A stretch of 27,634 nt of DNA, taken from positions 1-27,634 of IMG/VR virus record IMGVR_UViG_3300031669_000193; one strand, given 5' to 3'. Source of the DNA: a virus. Below, in pieces: positions 16,168 through 27,525 of this stretch. Position 1 is the first letter of the stretch. Every line of letters starts with the position of its first letter. A model generated the notes under the pieces. That model worked only from the letters and a program-made list of their open reading frames with translations. It did not search any database and was not told the DNA's origin. The translations under genes were made by a program, and so were the position numbers.

Positions 16168-16683
16168 ATGGGAAAGCGCGGACCGAAAAAAGGCACGAAA
16201 CCGAAGCGCGACCGGCTGAGCAAGAAGGCGAAGAAAGAGATCATCCGGGACGTGATGAAGCGCCACGTGAACTACAATAGGCATGGATTCACAACAGTGC
16301 TGAGGCAATATTTCATAAACGAATATGGGATAACGTTAACTGCCGGGTACATCTGGCAGTTGAAAAAAGAGGTTATAGACGATCTACGCAACGCGGACGA
16401 CATATTCTTAGCAAAGAGGCACATACTTGAGAGCATGGCCAGATTGTGCGAGAAGGCAGAGGAGGCACAAGATATAGCGGTTGCCGGGAAGTTATTAACT
16501 GAAATAGCAGATCTTCAGGGAATGTACCTGAAACGCGACGAAGGAGGCCATGGAGACCTCGCCGAAATCGGTCGGACACTCACAGCTATCTTTAAGCAGC
16601 GGACTAGCGACGAATCTTATCGACCAACCGCACCTGCTGGGCCACCTACTGGGGTACGACCGCCTAAAGACGATTCACAGTGA
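16168..16683 (+). CDS. terS: Terminase small subunit (probable)
   Basis: Recognises phage DNA ends and hands them to the large subunit. The 171-residue protein starts with a very basic segment (KRGPKKGTKPKRDRLSKKAK), followed by a helix-turn-helix-like region (HGFTTVLRQYFINEYGITLT, GYIWQLKKEVIDDL) and a helical oligomerisation region (about 78-125). It ends in a Pro-rich tail. Identification rests on size, HTH, and location directly before the large subunit. The last 134 bases are shared with the large subunit gene in another frame. Confidence 0.7.
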   Translation: MGKRGPKKGTKPKRDRLSKKAKKEIIRDVMKRHVNYNRHGFTTVLRQYFINEYGITLTAGYIWQLKKEVIDDLRNADDIFLAKRHILESMARLCEKAEEAQDIAVAGKLLTEIADLQGMYLKRDEGGHGDLAEIGRTLTAIFKQRTSDESYRPTAPAGPPTGVRPPKDDSQ

Positions 16684-17860
16684 CTGGATCAAGTACGTCT
16701 GGGGGACGACGGACGATGTAAACCTGCAGGCGCATCGCGGAAGCTATAAGACGACCGCGATCACCATCGTGGGCATGATCTGGTATCACCTATTCAACCC
16801 GGAAGACCGGATCCTGCTTTCACGGAAGAACTACAAGGGCGCATGCAATACGATCGTCGAGATGATCGGCCACTACAGACGACCAGTCATGCGCGAGATC
16901 TACCGGCGCCTGTGGGGGATTGAGAACTTTAAGCTGCCAACGGCTCGGAAAGAGCGCATCGTCTTACCCACCAAGCAGAGATCTTCTAAAGAGGGCAGTG
17001 TGGACGCTTCTGGAATCGATACCTCGGTCACCGGGCTTCACTACGAGCGCCAGATTGACGACGACGTAGTGGCGCGCGAGGACAAGGAGTCGAAGGCGGC
17101 ACGGCTAGCCACGATCGCTTATTACCATGAGCAGCAGAACCTACGGAACCCGGGCGGTTGCGTGGATGTTATCGGCACACCGTGGCACAAGAACGACCTC
17201 TGGAGTATCCTCGAAGGTATAATGAAGTTCCCGCTCGGTACGCCTGGCATGAACATTCCGGGCTTCACGGAAGCGTATATCAGGAAGCTCGAGCGAGCAT
17301 TGACGGCGCAGCTCATGGCTTGCAACTATCATCTGATCCACATCGCGGAGAGCGACCGCATCTTCCCGGACCCGGTCAAGGGCGACTGGCCCAAGGAGCT
17401 GCAGCCCCGGGCATACCTGGACCCGGCATTCGGCGGAGAGAACACCACGGCGCTGACGATGATCGGGAACTACCGGCGCCAGTGGTATGCTAGAGGCTGG
17501 GTCTGGCCGATGGACGTGACGCAGCTCTACCAGAAAATCGTCAATATGCTCGAGCAATACAAGAACGGGACGCTCTACGTCGAGGACAACGCGGACAAGG
17601 GCGCCAGTGCGCGAGATCTCGCACAAAAGTGGCCAGCCGTAGAGCGCAGGACCGAGTCGATGAATAAGCATACGCGTATCGTGACGTTTGCGAAGCAGCA
17701 TTTCCACAAGCTGATATGGGCCCACGACACGCAGACCGAGTATATGTCGCAAATCATTGACTACGCAGAGGGCGAGGAACCGGACGACGCTCCGGATTCT
17801 CTGGCAGGTATGATCCGAGAGCTGGCAATCGGCGACGCGGATATTCGAGATAGATACTAA
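16550..17860 (+). CDS. terL: Terminase large subunit (ATPase/nuclease)
   Basis: Motor that packages DNA into the prohead and cuts it. The 436-residue protein has a terminase-type Walker A, HRGSYKTT at 62-69, and a Walker B-like segment YERQIDDDVV at 165-174; motif III is plausible at VIGTPWH (208-213). The C-terminal RNase H-like nuclease shows D291 (YLDPAFGG), an acidic pair at 345-346 (LYVEDNADKG) and D416 (DAPDSLAGM). It is shorter than many large terminases but complete. ATG 16550 lies 134 bases inside terS; the AAGGAGG at 16541-16547 is only two bases from it. No later ATG/GTG precedes the ATPase motif. Confidence 0.92.
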   Translation: METSPKSVGHSQLSLSSGLATNLIDQPHLLGHLLGYDRLKTIHSDWIKYVWGTTDDVNLQAHRGSYKTTAITIVGMIWYHLFNPEDRILLSRKNYKGACNTIVEMIGHYRRPVMREIYRRLWGIENFKLPTARKERIVLPTKQRSSKEGSVDASGIDTSVTGLHYERQIDDDVVAREDKESKAARLATIAYYHEQQNLRNPGGCVDVIGTPWHKNDLWSILEGIMKFPLGTPGMNIPGFTEAYIRKLERALTAQLMACNYHLIHIAESDRIFPDPVKGDWPKELQPRAYLDPAFGGENTTALTMIGNYRRQWYARGWVWPMDVTQLYQKIVNMLEQYKNGTLYVEDNADKGASARDLAQKWPAVERRTESMNKHTRIVTFAKQHFHKLIWAHDTQTEYMSQIIDYAEGEEPDDAPDSLAGMIRELAIGDADIRDRY

Positions 17861-19286: not shown

Positions 19287-19323
19287 ATCGAGACTTGAAC
19301 GCAAGGGAGAGGAAACAATATGA

Positions 19324-19525
19324 GGCCTCAAGCTCTAGACGCAAACATATCAAGAGCCAATGAGGTATTGGCCGTCTGTCTCCGGTACAGCCGGGGACGG
19401 AAACTAGGCGGCCCAAATTTGCGGCGGTTCCGGCGAGCGATTAACGGCAGGAATAGTGATAGAGCGAGGTTTCAATCAGCCTTGCCCTGCACCTCCACCT
19501 GCTGCGCCACTGACCCGGGGCCGCC
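19324..19525 (+). ncRNA. Candidate structured RNA upstream of the tRNA
   Basis: The 200 bases before the tRNA fold well. Hairpin 1: GCTCT/AGAGC (19332-19336/19353-19357) inside CCTC/GAGG. Hairpin 2: CCGT/ACGG and CTCCGG/CCGGGG (19372-19400, loop TACAG). Element 3 is a long nested stem: GGCGGCCC/GGGCCGCC (19407-19414/19518-19525), GGCG/CGCC (19432-19435/19505-19508), GCAGG/CCTGC (19447-19451/19498-19502), GAGGT/ACCTC (19466-19470/19491-19495). The tRNA begins five bases later. A 106-codon ORF (19320-19640) spans the region but reads through the tRNA in a shadow-like composition. Could be a ncRNA or a tRNA leader. It is smaller than the GOLLD and ROOL RNAs that occur near phage tRNAs, and I cannot match it to them. 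Confidence 0.45.
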
Positions 19526-19530
19526 CTTAC

Positions 19531-19605
19531 CGCGGAGTGGGCGAACGGTACGCCGCAAGGCTCATAACCTTGAGACAGCGAGTTCAACTCTCGCCTCCGC
19601 TACCA
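19531..19605 (+). tRNA. tRNA-Met(CAU), initiator-like
   Basis: A complete 75-base cloverleaf with encoded CCA. Acceptor CGCGGAG/CTCCGCT with a C1 x U72 mismatch; D-stem GGCG/CGCC with loop AACGGTA; anticodon stem CAAGG/CCTTG with loop CTCATAA (anticodon CAU); variable loop AGACA; T-stem GCGAG/CTCGC with loop TTCAACT; discriminator A73. The 1:72 mismatch, G2:C71, C3:G70, G4:C69 and purine 11:pyrimidine 24 (G11:C24) are initiator tRNA features. The anticodon stem has A29:U41, G30:C40, G31:C39 instead of three G:C pairs, a variant known from some mycoplasma and rhizobial initiators. Elongator Met or a lysidine Ile2 tRNA is less likely because of the unpaired 1:72. Confidence 0.92.
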
Positions 19606-19617
19606 AGGAGTGGCATC

Positions 19618-19779
19618 GTGGATATGTTCGGGCAGCTTGAGGAATTCCTAGACGAAACGGAGGACGAGGTGGCCAAGCTGAAATATTTTCTGATCGGTGT
19701 ACTAGTCGGGCTCGTTGGAGGATGGGCTAGCCACGTGGTGTGGATCTGGCTTAACAGCACCCCGGCCATCGGTCTATAA
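19618..19779 (+). CDS. Small single-span membrane protein, 53 aa
   Basis: The start is taken at GTG 19618, seven bases after AAGGAG (19605-19610), which begins at the last base of the tRNA CCA; ATG 19624 is the alternative. The frame is open from 19456 but that part is the tRNA and its leader. The acidic N-terminus (EEFLDETEDEVAKLK) is followed by a membrane span at about 23-45 (YFLIGVLVGLVGGWASHVVW). Could be a small holin-like or accessory membrane protein; no family is recognisable. Processing of the tRNA 3' end would cut into the ribosome binding site. Confidence 0.6.
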   Translation: MDMFGQLEEFLDETEDEVAKLKYFLIGVLVGLVGGWASHVVWIWLNSTPAIGL

Positions 19780-20673: not shown

Positions 20674-20962
20674 GCAGCTCGATAAGCTGATGGAAGACAT
20701 AGAAGCGCACGTTGAGGACGGATATAGTCTGTGGGATAAGTTCCGCAAGTGGTTATGCGGAGATCTGATCGAGCGGGAGATCGGCATCACGCTGATCGCC
20801 GTAAGGCGCGCACTCGGTCGGCAGATACAGGCCAACCCGCGCGACCACAATCAGTTAAGCCAGTTTCACCAATGGCTTAGTTCTGCGCTCGGGCCATTCT
20901 TCACCAAGGCATGGGACTACCTCAGGGAACACGGCATCGATTGGAAAACTAGCGAGCAATGA
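20654..20962 (+). CDS. Hypothetical helical protein, 102 aa
   Basis: ATG 20654 is supported by AAGGAGG eight bases upstream; it overlaps the zinc-ribbon gene by 20 bases. All-helical in appearance, with several Trp (SLWDKFRKWLCGDLIER, FHQWLSSALGPFFTKAWDYL). The C-terminal half may be amphipathic. It is coupled by ATGA to the MuF protein, which suggests a head-morphogenesis role, but no family is recognised. Confidence 0.65.
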   Translation: MEAPTNEQLDKLMEDIEAHVEDGYSLWDKFRKWLCGDLIEREIGITLIAVRRALGRQIQANPRDHNQLSQFHQWLSSALGPFFTKAWDYLREHGIDWKTSEQ

Positions 20963-23016
20963 AAAGCCAGTATCCCATACATCTCGAGCGCAGCTTATCG
21001 AGAATATGGGCGGCCTACATTGAACGCTTTTTCCAAGTCATGCTGCAGCTTGTCCGGAAGCAGTATGAGAAGGATCTCCCCGTCGATCCCCAGCAACAGG
21101 TAGCCGCCGATTCTCTCAACGAAGATCTGATCGCATTCATCAATACGATTGATGGCACGGATCACGCCGCCACCGGCGCCGTCGTCGACATCGAAGGCAC
21201 CAAAGTATCAAAGAGCATGGTGCAGAGCATCCGGCGCACCATGCGCGAGATCGACACGTGGAGCTTTGACACGACCAAGGCTGCGGTGCAACGCATCGAC
21301 GTGCGGAAAGGCACGGAGCTAGCCGTGGACGTCTTCCGCGAGACTCCGGCGCTGAATAATATCCTGCGGAGTAGGGCGGTCGAGAACGCCAAGCTGATTA
21401 AAGGACTACAGACAACGCAGGCGAAGAAAATCGCCGGAGCTGTCCGGCAGAGCCTGACAAAGGGAACCTCCCTAAAGAAGTTAGAGGCGCGACTCCGGAA
21501 GATCGGCAACGTCGACAAGAATAAGGCGCGATTCTGGGCCGTCGACCAGCTGGGGACGCTCAACGCGGACCTCAACGAAGAGCGTCACAAGGGCGCCGGG
21601 TTCCCCGGCTATATTTGGTGGACCTCCCTGGACAACCGAGTCCGTGATACTCATGCTGAGCGGCATGGTAATTTCTATGAGTATGGGAAGACCGACACTG
21701 ACCCGGGCCGGCCTTACCGTTGCCGGTGCCATGCGGAGCCGGCGTTCGGACCCGAGGACGCTCAGACCGAGATGCAGAAGGCGCGGGATCTTAATATCAT
21801 GAAGCGGGAACGTCGAGCGTTTGGGCAGCCGACAGAAGCCTTGAACGATCTAATCGTAAGCGCCAAGCCAACCAACCTTATTTCATTCAAAGCCGTGCCA
21901 TCATCTAATTTATCCGCGCTCAAGACAATCGAGCTCAGAGAGATGGCGAAGGAACGCGGGATCAAATACTTTCGCGTGATGAATAAAGAGGAGCTTCAGG
22001 TCGTTCTTACGAATCCGGATCGTGTAGAGGAAATCGCTATGATAGCAAAGGCCCGGTGGCAGAAGTTGCCGGTGCCTAATCCTAAGGGTGCAATTACATC
22101 TTTAGAGGTAGAACTGAACCGCAAGAGCGTCCGTGCATTGCAGATGGAGGCTAACAAAAAGGGCATCAAGAACTTCCGCGTGATGAATAAGGAACAACTG
22201 GTGCGTGTTTTATCTGATCCATCTGAGTATGACAAGGTCCAGCGGGAGCTTAAGGTAAAGCTGGCGGCTGCCGGCAGAGTGAGAGGTCGCAAGGTAGGCA
22301 CTACGAAGTTCGACGATCTGAAGCTGAGCCGCGAAGCTGCAAAGAGAGAGGAGTCGATCAACAATATTCTGGACAGGGTTTCCGCAAATGGAAGGCGTTC
22401 AGGCGGTAAGCTAAGAACAGAATTCAAGGAGTATTTGAATGAACTAACAACGAAACAAGTACAGACGGCAGAGAAGTTCCTGCAGGAGATCAGAGATTAT
22501 GATACGTGGAAAGATGCAGTATTAGATTTAGGGCTGAGTGACACTAAAGAATTCACCGGATTGTATTTCGATCAGAAGATGGTAATAGTTGGCAGCAAGA
22601 TGAGACGAGATACATTCACGCATGAATTCGCTCACTTCCTAGATGATATGTTTGGAGTGACATCCATTTCTAAAGGCAAGGCCAGCCGAAAGCTGCGCGA
22701 TGCTGTGGATGTAGCGTTCGAAAGATCCCGCGAGCGGGCGCTTAAGAAGCTAAAGAAATTATCGCCAAGGGTATACAAGGATATCACCAACACGGTAGAT
22801 GTAGATTGGAAAGACGAGCAGGTCTACGGGGCATTCTTCAAGTGGCGAGCGGAAGAAGCGAAGATCATCAGTGGGTATTCGCTTTACGATAGGGGCGAGT
22901 ACTGGGCCGAATCCGTGATGTATTACATGGAGAAAGGCAACTGGCTGATCAGGCAAGAGCCAGGTCTGTATAAGCTTCTCAAAGAAGAAATATTTGATGG
23001 GAAGGAATTCTTATGA
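20959..23016 (+). CDS. MuF-type head-morphogenesis protein fused to HExxH metallopeptidase domain
   Basis: A 685-residue minor head protein. Residues ~1-265 are the SPP1 gp7/MuF region, with the diagnostic WWTSLDNRVRDTHAERHG (220-237) and PGRPYRCRC (249-257). Residues 321-355 and 390-425 are two similar ~35-residue repeats sharing GIKxFRVMNKEEL/QL, like SAP/Rho-N helical hairpins. Residues ~450-685 carry HEFAH at 555-559 and an E651 candidate third ligand (YWAESVMYYM), the layout of a gluzincin zinc peptidase. MuF proteins with variable C-terminal enzyme or toxin domains are known; here the domain could act on head proteins or be delivered with the DNA. The C-terminal coding part is more AT-rich than the MuF part, suggesting a later addition. 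Confidence 0.88.
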   Translation: MKSQYPIHLERSLSRIWAAYIERFFQVMLQLVRKQYEKDLPVDPQQQVAADSLNEDLIAFINTIDGTDHAATGAVVDIEGTKVSKSMVQSIRRTMREIDTWSFDTTKAAVQRIDVRKGTELAVDVFRETPALNNILRSRAVENAKLIKGLQTTQAKKIAGAVRQSLTKGTSLKKLEARLRKIGNVDKNKARFWAVDQLGTLNADLNEERHKGAGFPGYIWWTSLDNRVRDTHAERHGNFYEYGKTDTDPGRPYRCRCHAEPAFGPEDAQTEMQKARDLNIMKRERRAFGQPTEALNDLIVSAKPTNLISFKAVPSSNLSALKTIELREMAKERGIKYFRVMNKEELQVVLTNPDRVEEIAMIAKARWQKLPVPNPKGAITSLEVELNRKSVRALQMEANKKGIKNFRVMNKEQLVRVLSDPSEYDKVQRELKVKLAAAGRVRGRKVGTTKFDDLKLSREAAKREESINNILDRVSANGRRSGGKLRTEFKEYLNELTTKQVQTAEKFLQEIRDYDTWKDAVLDLGLSDTKEFTGLYFDQKMVIVGSKMRRDTFTHEFAHFLDDMFGVTSISKGKASRKLRDAVDVAFERSRERALKKLKKLSPRVYKDITNTVDVDWKDEQVYGAFFKWRAEEAKIISGYSLYDRGEYWAESVMYYMEKGNWLIRQEPGLYKLLKEEIFDGKEFL

Positions 23017-23297
23017 GGTACGCAATGATCGCGCGGGAGATTAAAGGCCGGATGGAACCGGTCGGCACGATTGATTTAGATAAGGACGGCTTTTCGTTCG
23101 AGACTAGCGACGCGAAGCTTTCAAGATTGCTGGGCCGTGTGAGGAAGAATGGTCTCCAAGTGATCGGCCCTCCGGGAAGCGAGGGTCCGGGCATTCATGC
23201 GGTGAACGTTATCCAGAAGAAAATCACTGAGGATACAACCGCGTTGCTGGAGCACGAGCTGCTAGTGAATGAATATTACTGGTGGGAGGAAATATGA
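23013..23297 (+). CDS. Small hypothetical protein after MuF, 94 aa
   Basis: ATGA overlap with the MuF-peptidase gene and with the next gene. Alternating beta/alpha pattern (MIAREIKGRMEPVGTIDLDK, GLQVIGPPGSEGPGIHAVNV), acidic C-terminus with WWEEI. No family recognised. Its place directly after a MuF protein with a variable enzyme domain is where an immunity or accessory gene would lie, but nothing in the sequence shows this. Confidence 0.6.
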   Translation: MRYAMIAREIKGRMEPVGTIDLDKDGFSFETSDAKLSRLLGRVRKNGLQVIGPPGSEGPGIHAVNVIQKKITEDTTALLEHELLVNEYYWWEEI

Positions 23298-23767
23298 CGC
23301 TGGCCAAGAAAGATATACTCAGCAAGAAGCGTGAAGTCACGGCGTTGCGCGAGTCGATGATTTACTTCCTGATCAGAGGTAATGATATTGTCTACATCGG
23401 TCAGACAAAGGTTGGTCTCTCGCGTGTGCTAGTCCATGCATCTGACAAGGCATTCGATTCGTTCTTCTCTATTGATTGCCCGGAGGCGCAGCTCGACGAG
23501 ATGGAGTCGCGGTATATTAAGAAGTTCGCGCCGCTGCACAACATAAAAGGTCTTGGTAGCAAACCTCCTGAAAAGGAACGACCGCTAGAGTTGCAAGATT
23601 TCTACACGATAAAAGAGGCGGCAGGACAGCTCAGAGTCACACCGCGCACCATCCTCCGCTGGTGCCATGCTAAGAAGATCGGGTATTTCAAACCATCCGC
23701 GAAGGTCTTTCTAATTCCACGAGACGATATTCTCCGGCTCTTGTCGGGTGAAACCATAAAGGATTAG
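23294..23767 (+). CDS. GIY-YIG nuclease domain fused to excisionase-like HTH
   Basis: A 157-residue protein starting at ATG 23294 (ATGA junction; the frame's GTG 23282 is less likely). Residues 20-85 carry a GIY-YIG-type domain: Y24 (SMIYFLIRG), YIG at 34-36, R44, E71 (LDEMESRYI) and N83 (LHN), all catalytic positions filled. Residues ~102-150 are a MerR/excisionase-type HTH (FYTIKEAAGQLRVTPRTILR, then FLIPRDDILRLL). A DNA-binding domain after the nuclease resembles homing endonucleases or small phage regulators. It is the last gene before the capsid promoter, which it might regulate (inference). Confidence 0.78.
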   Translation: MTLAKKDILSKKREVTALRESMIYFLIRGNDIVYIGQTKVGLSRVLVHASDKAFDSFFSIDCPEAQLDEMESRYIKKFAPLHNIKGLGSKPPEKERPLELQDFYTIKEAAGQLRVTPRTILRWCHAKKIGYFKPSAKVFLIPRDDILRLLSGETIKD

Positions 23768-23838: not shown

Positions 23839-23866
23839 TTGACAGCGAAATGAGCCATGCTAATAT
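23839..23866 (+). promoter_or_regulatory. Sigma70-type promoter of the capsid operon
   Basis: TTGACA (23839-23844, perfect -35), 16-base spacer, TAATAT (23861-23866) with an extended TGC just upstream. The expected transcript start, about seven bases after the -10, falls on the ATG at 23873. The gap 23768-23872 holds nothing else that I can name except partial TTCGCG repeats at 23782-23796. Confidence 0.75.
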
Positions 23867-26580: not shown

Positions 26581-27525
26581 ATGCCCGAAGTATTACAGGA
26601 AGATCTAAGGCAAATATCCAACACGCTGTATTCACCCCGCGAACAGGAGCTAAAGACTCGCCAGCTCCTGCGTATAACGCGTGATTATGACGCGTTTGCG
26701 GACGTGATCGGCTACGACGTCTACGACCGCACAGGCAGCGCCATCGTGCTGGCAGCCGGTGCGGATGCGAAGGACATCCCTTTCGTAGGTGACAACCTCG
26801 AGCGTTTCACGCAGCAGGTCTACACCGTAGCGACCGGGATCCGTTTCACCAAGTCGGAACGCGATGCTGTTGAGTCGCGCAGGCGCAGGGCGATCGGCCC
26901 GGCACCCCAGCTCGACCAGCGGCGCGTGGCAACTGCCCGGCGCTATTGCTTCGAGAAGGAGCACAAACTGACGTTCGCCGGTGACTCTGCGGTCGGCATC
27001 AAGGGCCTTTTCGACGCCTCTTTCTACGGCGCCAACAAGGGCACCAAAGAGGACGTTGCAGAGGGATCGTTCGGCGGGACCGCCGCGCAGAACCGACTCT
27101 GGGTAAACAAGACGCCGCAGGAAATCCTTGATGACCTCTTGCAAGCCAAGATCGTCGTCGAGGACGGAGAGCTGTTCGAGTCGAAGGTGCTGGTGATCAG
27201 CACCAAAGCGAAGAACCGGCTCTTGAAGCCCTATTCCAACACGTCGCCAATGACCACGCTGAAGTGGCTGGCGACTGAGGGGATGTACTTCAACCAAGTG
27301 ATCACCACCAACGTCATGACCTCGACTTACAACGGTGACAGCGTTGATTATTTCATGGTGCTGGACAACGATCCGGAGATCGTCGAGCTGGCCACCACGC
27401 AGGACATCACGCTGCTGCCAGCGGTCTTTGACATGCTTCAGACGTCGAAGCAGGCAGTGATCATGAAGACAGGCGGCCCCATCGTCCGTCACCCGGCAGC
27501 TTTCTACATCGGCAAAGGGGTGTAG
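26581..27525 (+). CDS. Major capsid protein (DUF2184/encapsulin-like)
   Basis: Forms the icosahedral shell. The 314-residue protein has an N-terminal RQISNTLYSPREQELKTRQL and DYDAFADVIGYDVYDRTGSA, a central VDV-like beta region, KEHKLTFAGDSAVGIKGLFD, the P-domain helix (TPQEILDDLLQAKIVVEDG), and a C-terminal LPAVFDMLQTSKQAVIMKTG followed by GPIVRHPAAFYIGKGV. This course fits DUF2184-type HK97-fold capsid proteins. No N-terminal cleaved delta domain is obvious. AAGGAGGCAT lies upstream of ATG 26581. The family usually follows a cement protein, as here. Confidence 0.87.
   Translation: MPEVLQEDLRQISNTLYSPREQELKTRQLLRITRDYDAFADVIGYDVYDRTGSAIVLAAGADAKDIPFVGDNLERFTQQVYTVATGIRFTKSERDAVESRRRRAIGPAPQLDQRRVATARRYCFEKEHKLTFAGDSAVGIKGLFDASFYGANKGTKEDVAEGSFGGTAAQNRLWVNKTPQEILDDLLQAKIVVEDGELFESKVLVISTKAKNRLLKPYSNTSPMTTLKWLATEGMYFNQVITTNVMTSTYNGDSVDYFMVLDNDPEIVELATTQDITLLPAVFDMLQTSKQAVIMKTGGPIVRHPAAFYIGKGV

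Follow-up and report, generated by a model that had tools for sequence, protein, structure and literature searches.

The tRNA gene at positions 19531-19605 of the window, the linear stretch of 27,634 bases from the IMG/VR phage record IMGVR_UViG_3300031669_000193 analyzed here, is confirmed at the sequence level as a well-supported bacterial-type initiator tRNA (tRNA-fMet). Its identity by sequence, its unbroken fold, the CCA that it encodes, and its place and strand are established, and we favor the reading, with a probability of about 0.6, that it is late-expressed head-operon cargo with which a tailed phage would top up the supply of initiator.

ARAGORN detected this tRNA-Met(CAU) on the plus strand as the sole tRNA in the window, and it matched Rfam RF00005 over its full length (57.9 bits, E = 2.9e-10). 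The predicted minimum-free-energy (MFE) fold was a cloverleaf (-27.8 kcal/mol, z = -2.05 versus shuffles). The sequence was parsed into the columns CGCGGAG TG GGCG AACGGTA CGCC G CAAGG CTCATAA CCTTG AGACA GCGAG TTCAACT CTCGC CTCCGCT A CCA. Bacterial initiator genes usually encode their CCA (PMC5143459). The gene and its parts, the latter read from the parsed sequence, are as follows:

19531-19605, plus strand: initiator-type tRNA gene, anticodon CAU, 3' CCA encoded (ARAGORN, Rfam, cloverleaf MFE, log-odds)
19531-19537, plus strand: 5' acceptor strand CGCGGAG, with C1xU72 unpaired, then G2:C71, C3:G70 and G4:C69
19540-19554, plus strand: D arm GGCG-AACGGTA-CGCC, in which G11:C24 is a purine:pyrimidine pair of initiator type
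19556-19572, plus strand: anticodon arm CAAGG-CUCAUAA-CCUUG, with A29:U41, G30:C40 and G31:C39
19595-19605, plus strand: 3' acceptor strand CUCCGCU, A73 and the encoded CCA

Column by column, the parsing bore out the base identities named in the original prediction (C1xU72, G2:C71, C3:G70, G4:C69, purine11:pyrimidine24, A73 and the CAU anticodon) and its AU/GC/GC anticodon stem, here A29:U41, G30:C40 and G31:C39. By the initiator determinants described in the literature (PMC7949028), the tRNA has the weak or unpaired 1:72, the three acceptor pairs that follow it, the purine11:pyrimidine24 pair and G30:C40; A29:U41 stands in place of the first of three consecutive G:C pairs at 29-31:39-41. A log-odds classifier was also made for this analysis, in which the collected CAU tRNAs were split solely by a strong or weak 1:72 pair and scored over 47 other columns, positions 1 and 72 being excluded. 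On this score, trained on the same collected loci, the window tRNA, at 45.2 bits, came close to the median of 46.7 for the weak-1:72 (initiator) set, whereas the highest of 65 strong-1:72 (elongator-like) CAU tRNAs reached 29.4, in agreement with the initiator type that had been predicted. The CAU anticodon by itself fits initiator, elongator tRNA-Met and lysidine tRNA-Ile2 alike, but the unpaired 1:72, the purine11:pyrimidine24 pair and the anticodon stem are all unlike elongators and the score exceeds that of every elongator-like tRNA, so that an elongator or Ile2 tRNA sharing some initiator features is extremely improbable. Unusual in the window tRNA are G11:C24, which is rarer than A11:U24 among initiators, the 7-nt D loop, and A15/A48, which occupy positions 15 and 48 instead of the usual G15-C48 tertiary pair. 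A similar AACGG D loop with A48 was seen in L008 and L202 and in two bacterial tRNAs (L141, L144).

Near-universality is generally assumed for the three G:C pairs of the initiator anticodon stem, which have been studied chiefly through mutants made in the laboratory. They are typical of tRNA-fMet and not strictly defining; A29:U41 is also present in many bacterial initiators and in that of phage T5. The core of the window stem (pattern AAGGCTCATAACCTT...GTTCAA) was found in 82 IMG/VR contigs, and most of their tRNAs had purine11:pyrimidine24 and lacked a strong 1:72 pair. Viral initiators were then sampled by a D-stem pattern, which placed no condition on the anticodon stem, and 104 unique tRNAs among the matches listed were parsed. 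Pair 30:40 was G:C in 101 of these 104 listed tRNAs. Pair 29:41, by comparison, was A:U in 43, G:C in 33, U:A in 26 and other in 2, and pair 31:39 was G:C in 76, C:G in 15 and mixed in the remainder. Eighteen of the 104, whose stem is the alphaproteobacterial TCAGG/CCTGA, could be copies of host genes at the ends of prophages. The same D-stem pattern listed 186 bacterial genomes (95 Pseudomonadota, 60 Bacillota and 31 Cyanobacteria; totals counted by eye). Among the Pseudomonadota listed, 66 had G29:C41 and 29 had A29:U41, the latter being usual in one block that includes alphaproteobacteria such as Agrobacterium; nearly all listed Bacillota and Cyanobacteria had G29:C41. A29:U41 was also common in Pelagibacter and Omnitrophota. 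The AU/GC/GC stem is therefore natural variation, as had been claimed, shared with initiators of all these A29:U41 groups. Among the matches listed, U29:A41 occurred in 26/104 viral tRNAs and in none of the 186 bacterial genomes (Fisher p = 3e-13), and a 31:39 pair other than G:C, seen in only two bacterial copies, was likewise more frequent in viruses (p = 5e-12), in tests on sequences that are not phylogenetically independent.

Published work gives a structural reason for this pattern: G30-C40 is read by 16S A1339 through an A-minor contact that is sensitive to the bases, G1338 touches C41 at its 2'-OH, and exchange of G30-C40 for C:G lowered initiation about 20-fold in vivo (PMC11497404). 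On these grounds, A29:U41 in the window tRNA is no argument against initiator function, and retention of G30:C40, here and in 101/104 viral initiators, is as selection for P-site use predicts. The frequencies suggest that the middle pair is nearly fixed in viral initiators and that the outer pairs of the anticodon stem are loosened. Phage-borne initiators supply many natural stem variants, which indicate that it is the middle pair that is indispensable, in agreement with the structures. In the bacterial genomes L127 (Agrobacterium), G091, G155 and G156, a normal initiator tRNA is accompanied by another copy whose anticodon stem differs; these extra copies are possibly phage-derived.

The altered stem also bears on counter-defense against tRNA-fMet nucleases, which is the main rival to late resupply. 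On this account the phage would replace initiator cut by a host nuclease, for example a VapC toxin, and the stem would lower cleavage of its own copy. VapC enzymes of several bacteria cut the anticodon stem-loop of tRNA-fMet, and extra metZWV partly rescues from the Bosea VapC (PMC8522696); evasion of tRNases has been proposed for phage tRNAs (PMC10264068), and at 29:41 the window stem departs from GGG/CCC, the form that most bacteria have. However, ordinary bacterial initiators have the same stem, the loop CUCAUAA is the common bacterial anticodon loop, and published evasion works via loop changes. We consider this account unlikely.

Within the head operon, and on its strand, the tRNA has the portal gene on one side and a small membrane ORF on the other. 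This position, the status as sole tRNA of the window and the A at position 48 are additions to the original prediction. Window genes run in the order recombination/replication, ParB/methyltransferase, terminase, portal, tRNA, small ORFs, head morphogenesis, head protease, structural and major head protein. The principal neighbors are:

16550-17860, plus strand: terminase large subunit gene (phrog_38, E = 8.2e-44; 38.5% identity to Leptospira phage LE4)
17922-19286, plus strand: portal protein gene, the upstream neighbor of the tRNA (phrog_146, E = 1e-75)
19618-19779, plus strand: small ORF of 53 aa with a GTG start and one hydrophobic segment (small membrane ORF; from sequence)
20959-23016, plus strand: head morphogenesis/minor head protein gene, the next large gene downstream of the tRNA (phrog_324, E = 6.9e-45)
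26581-27525, plus strand: major head protein gene with an AAGGAGG Shine-Dalgarno (phrog_264, E = 1.5e-49)

With terminase, portal and head genes flanking it, the setting of the tRNA is a phage genome and not a host fragment. The AAGGAG Shine-Dalgarno of the 53-aa ORF overlaps the CCA end of the tRNA; since this site starts right at the CCA, the tRNA is compactly fitted into the operon. Immediately upstream of the tRNA, neither a promoter nor a terminator was found above chance. A 106-aa ORF (19320-19640) with a good Shine-Dalgarno start and no family match reads through the tRNA, and is perhaps a gene truncated by tRNA insertion. A near-identical 25-base stretch occurs at 19505-19530, just before the tRNA, and at 21695-21719, inside the head morphogenesis gene; it gives no clear signal and may be a shared coding motif. 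Between the head morphogenesis and protease genes, the ORF at 23282-23767 has a C-terminal HTH_17 domain and, judged by eye only, an N terminus (IYFLIRGNDIVYIGQT) like that of a GIY-YIG nuclease.

A further reading takes the tRNA for the remainder of an attachment site in a host tRNA, or for a support of tRNA-dependent lysogeny. Seven viral contigs (L212, L240, L255, L278, L305, L312 and L317) carry only the 3' half of tRNA-fMet, as for prophages integrated there, and L212, L240, L255, L305 and L312 terminate in this half. The initiator tRNA of L283 adjoins an integrase, and lysogeny can depend on tRNA genes that the phage carries (PMC10865867). The window tRNA, in contrast, is full-length including a divergent 5' half and sits in the head operon. 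No integrase was recognized among the ORFs searched in the window, itself a genome fragment beyond which one may lie. An attachment-site remnant was rejected on account of the complete and divergent 5' half, and an origin in a host attachment site or a role in tRNA-dependent lysogeny support is, taken together, highly improbable.

When the portal, the major head protein and the terminase were each used singly to search IMG/VR, no relatives came up. Terminase alignment recovered relatives, the closest of which with portal homology (L544-L551) have a terminase identity of 39-52%; no tRNA was found in these, several of which are short contigs. Any tRNA was present in only 6/80 loci of the terminase family, which amounts to sporadic carriage. 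As it is missing from the closest relatives by terminase and portal, the tRNA is not conserved in the lineage and would be recent or often lost cargo. Four genomes with a similar tRNA were searched for the portal, and it was absent from the results. Protein relatives are scattered over Leptospira, Enterococcus, Listeria, Vibrio and others, and the CAAGG stem is present in several phyla; both point to no one host. The tRNA-free close relatives and the 6/80 carriage would fit a neutral tRNA gained by recombination and carried without benefit. Neutral carriage is nevertheless quite unlikely: every stem is intact though the sequence is far from any host sequence seen, and viral initiators keep G30:C40 at 101/104 while adjacent pairs drift, which neutral decay would not do.

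We asked where other viral initiators lie. Fifty-six had at least 2 kb of flank on each side, and 36 of these were without another tRNA in the stretch examined. For 31 unique lone loci (the near-identical L038 and L043 counted once), the largest ORF within 2.5 kb was scanned against PHROGs. Thirteen had a head, packaging or connector neighbor and two a DNA metabolism neighbor, and 16 gave no informative match; head/packaging genes thus made up 13 of the 15 neighbors with an assigned function, all 13 on the tRNA strand. In the control, lone tRNA-Arg(UCU) loci (n = 15), two neighbors were head/connector, seven other and six without assignment (2/15, or 2/9 assigned). The difference had a Fisher p of 0.003 for assigned loci and 0.09 for all loci. 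Lone viral initiator tRNAs thus appear often to have head/packaging genes as neighbors and to share their strand, which from small samples and a small control is suggestive and not settled. From such placement one may suspect that late protein synthesis in phages can be limited by the supply of initiator. More tentatively, and with the balance of probability against it, phage initiator tRNAs may constitute a recurrent late module, repeatedly acquired and placed in the head operon, no longer bound to the outer two G:C pairs of the three but keeping the middle pair, and boosting initiation during capsid synthesis; if so, viral tRNAs would amount to a mutational scan of the initiator's anticodon stem carried out by nature. 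In Nocardia phage NTR1 (MF477236, L422), an unannotated CAU tRNA follows the major tail protein.

From these observations we infer what would become of the window tRNA, from transcription with its neighbors to use on the ribosome, and how the phage would benefit. It would be transcribed together with the portal and head genes and excised from the head transcript by RNase P and host 3' nucleases. Host MetRS would charge it and host Fmt formylate it, and the charged tRNA would enter the P site alongside host tRNA-fMet. The benefit would be an initiator supply that stays high at peak head-gene translation, or under host tRNA degradation or attack. Late resupply is argued for by the initiator determinants, the log-odds score, the constancy of G30:C40, the position of a lone tRNA between portal and head genes, the recurrence beside head genes and the layout of two Erythrobacter phages (below). 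Against it stand the closest relatives without a tRNA, the unusual G11:C24, D loop and A15/A48, an upstream region without a clear promoter, and the small samples behind the head-gene enrichment.

An initiator tRNA serves every message and is not message-specific. The proposal that the phage pushes host initiation toward its own messages therefore has to be qualified: total initiation could rise, but phage mRNAs would not be favored by the tRNA alone. Weak or leaderless starts could possibly be favored indirectly. One such start was suggested by the following site:

23839-23866, plus strand: promoter-like TTGACA-16-TAATAT; 6 nt separate its end from the ATG (23873) of the head protease gene

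No Shine-Dalgarno was seen before the protease gene, and a leaderless start there is plausible from the sequence; the promoter-like site is a consensus match only, one being found against a shuffle average of 1.1. The possibly leaderless capsid-operon message of the original prediction is accordingly plausible for the protease gene but not for the major head gene, which has a normal AAGGAGG; 33/39 starts examined, including this one, have a Shine-Dalgarno-like site.

Phage initiator tRNAs are already known, and the window tRNA is a further case and not a new phenomenon, since one is annotated in T5 and they are frequent in Sinorhizobium prophages. The tRNA-fMet of bacteriophage T5 (AY543070, 32428-32505) is likewise a phage-encoded CAU tRNA annotated as initiator. 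Parsed here, it has U1xU72, A11:U24, A29:U41 and G30:C40, and so also departs from the full set of three G:C pairs but retains the middle pair. It differs in belonging to an array of over 20 tRNAs that is remote from the head genes and in having U31:G39 and U73, whereas the window tRNA is alone, among head genes, with G31:C39 and A73. In S. meliloti phage-related sequences, tRNA-fMet is the commonest tRNA (9/25; PMC11476347), and phiLM21-like and other prophages of Sinorhizobium meliloti, phages of about 50 kb, likewise carry a single tRNA-fMet(CAU) unrelated to the integration site (PMC12429752, PMC11476347). These prophages are integrated in other tRNA genes, whereas the window phage is an uncultured fragment without a detectable close relative. 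Among bacterial A29:U41 tRNA-fMet (Pelagibacter, Omnitrophota, alphaproteobacteria), the A29:U41/G30:C40/G31:C39 core is common with the window, and Pelagibacter and many Omnitrophota have the full CAAGG/CCUUG stem. Unlike the window tRNA, bacterial copies selected by a CAAGG/CCUUG-type stem almost always have C1xA72 (90/113), A11:U24 (110/113) and longer D loops. In layout, Erythrobacter phages ZS04 (L423, PV416405 8406-8482) and vB_EliS_R6L (L625, KY006853) likewise have a CAU tRNA within the head module, in the gap between the terminase large subunit and portal genes; it is absent from the annotation of both and is the only tRNA in ZS04. The ZS04 tRNA has C1xA72 but also C11:G24 and C29:G41 with an elongator-like D stem, in contrast to G11:C24 and A29:U41 in the window, and because of C11:G24 its class is less clear. 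In both Erythrobacter phages the tRNA precedes the portal gene, whereas in the window it follows it.
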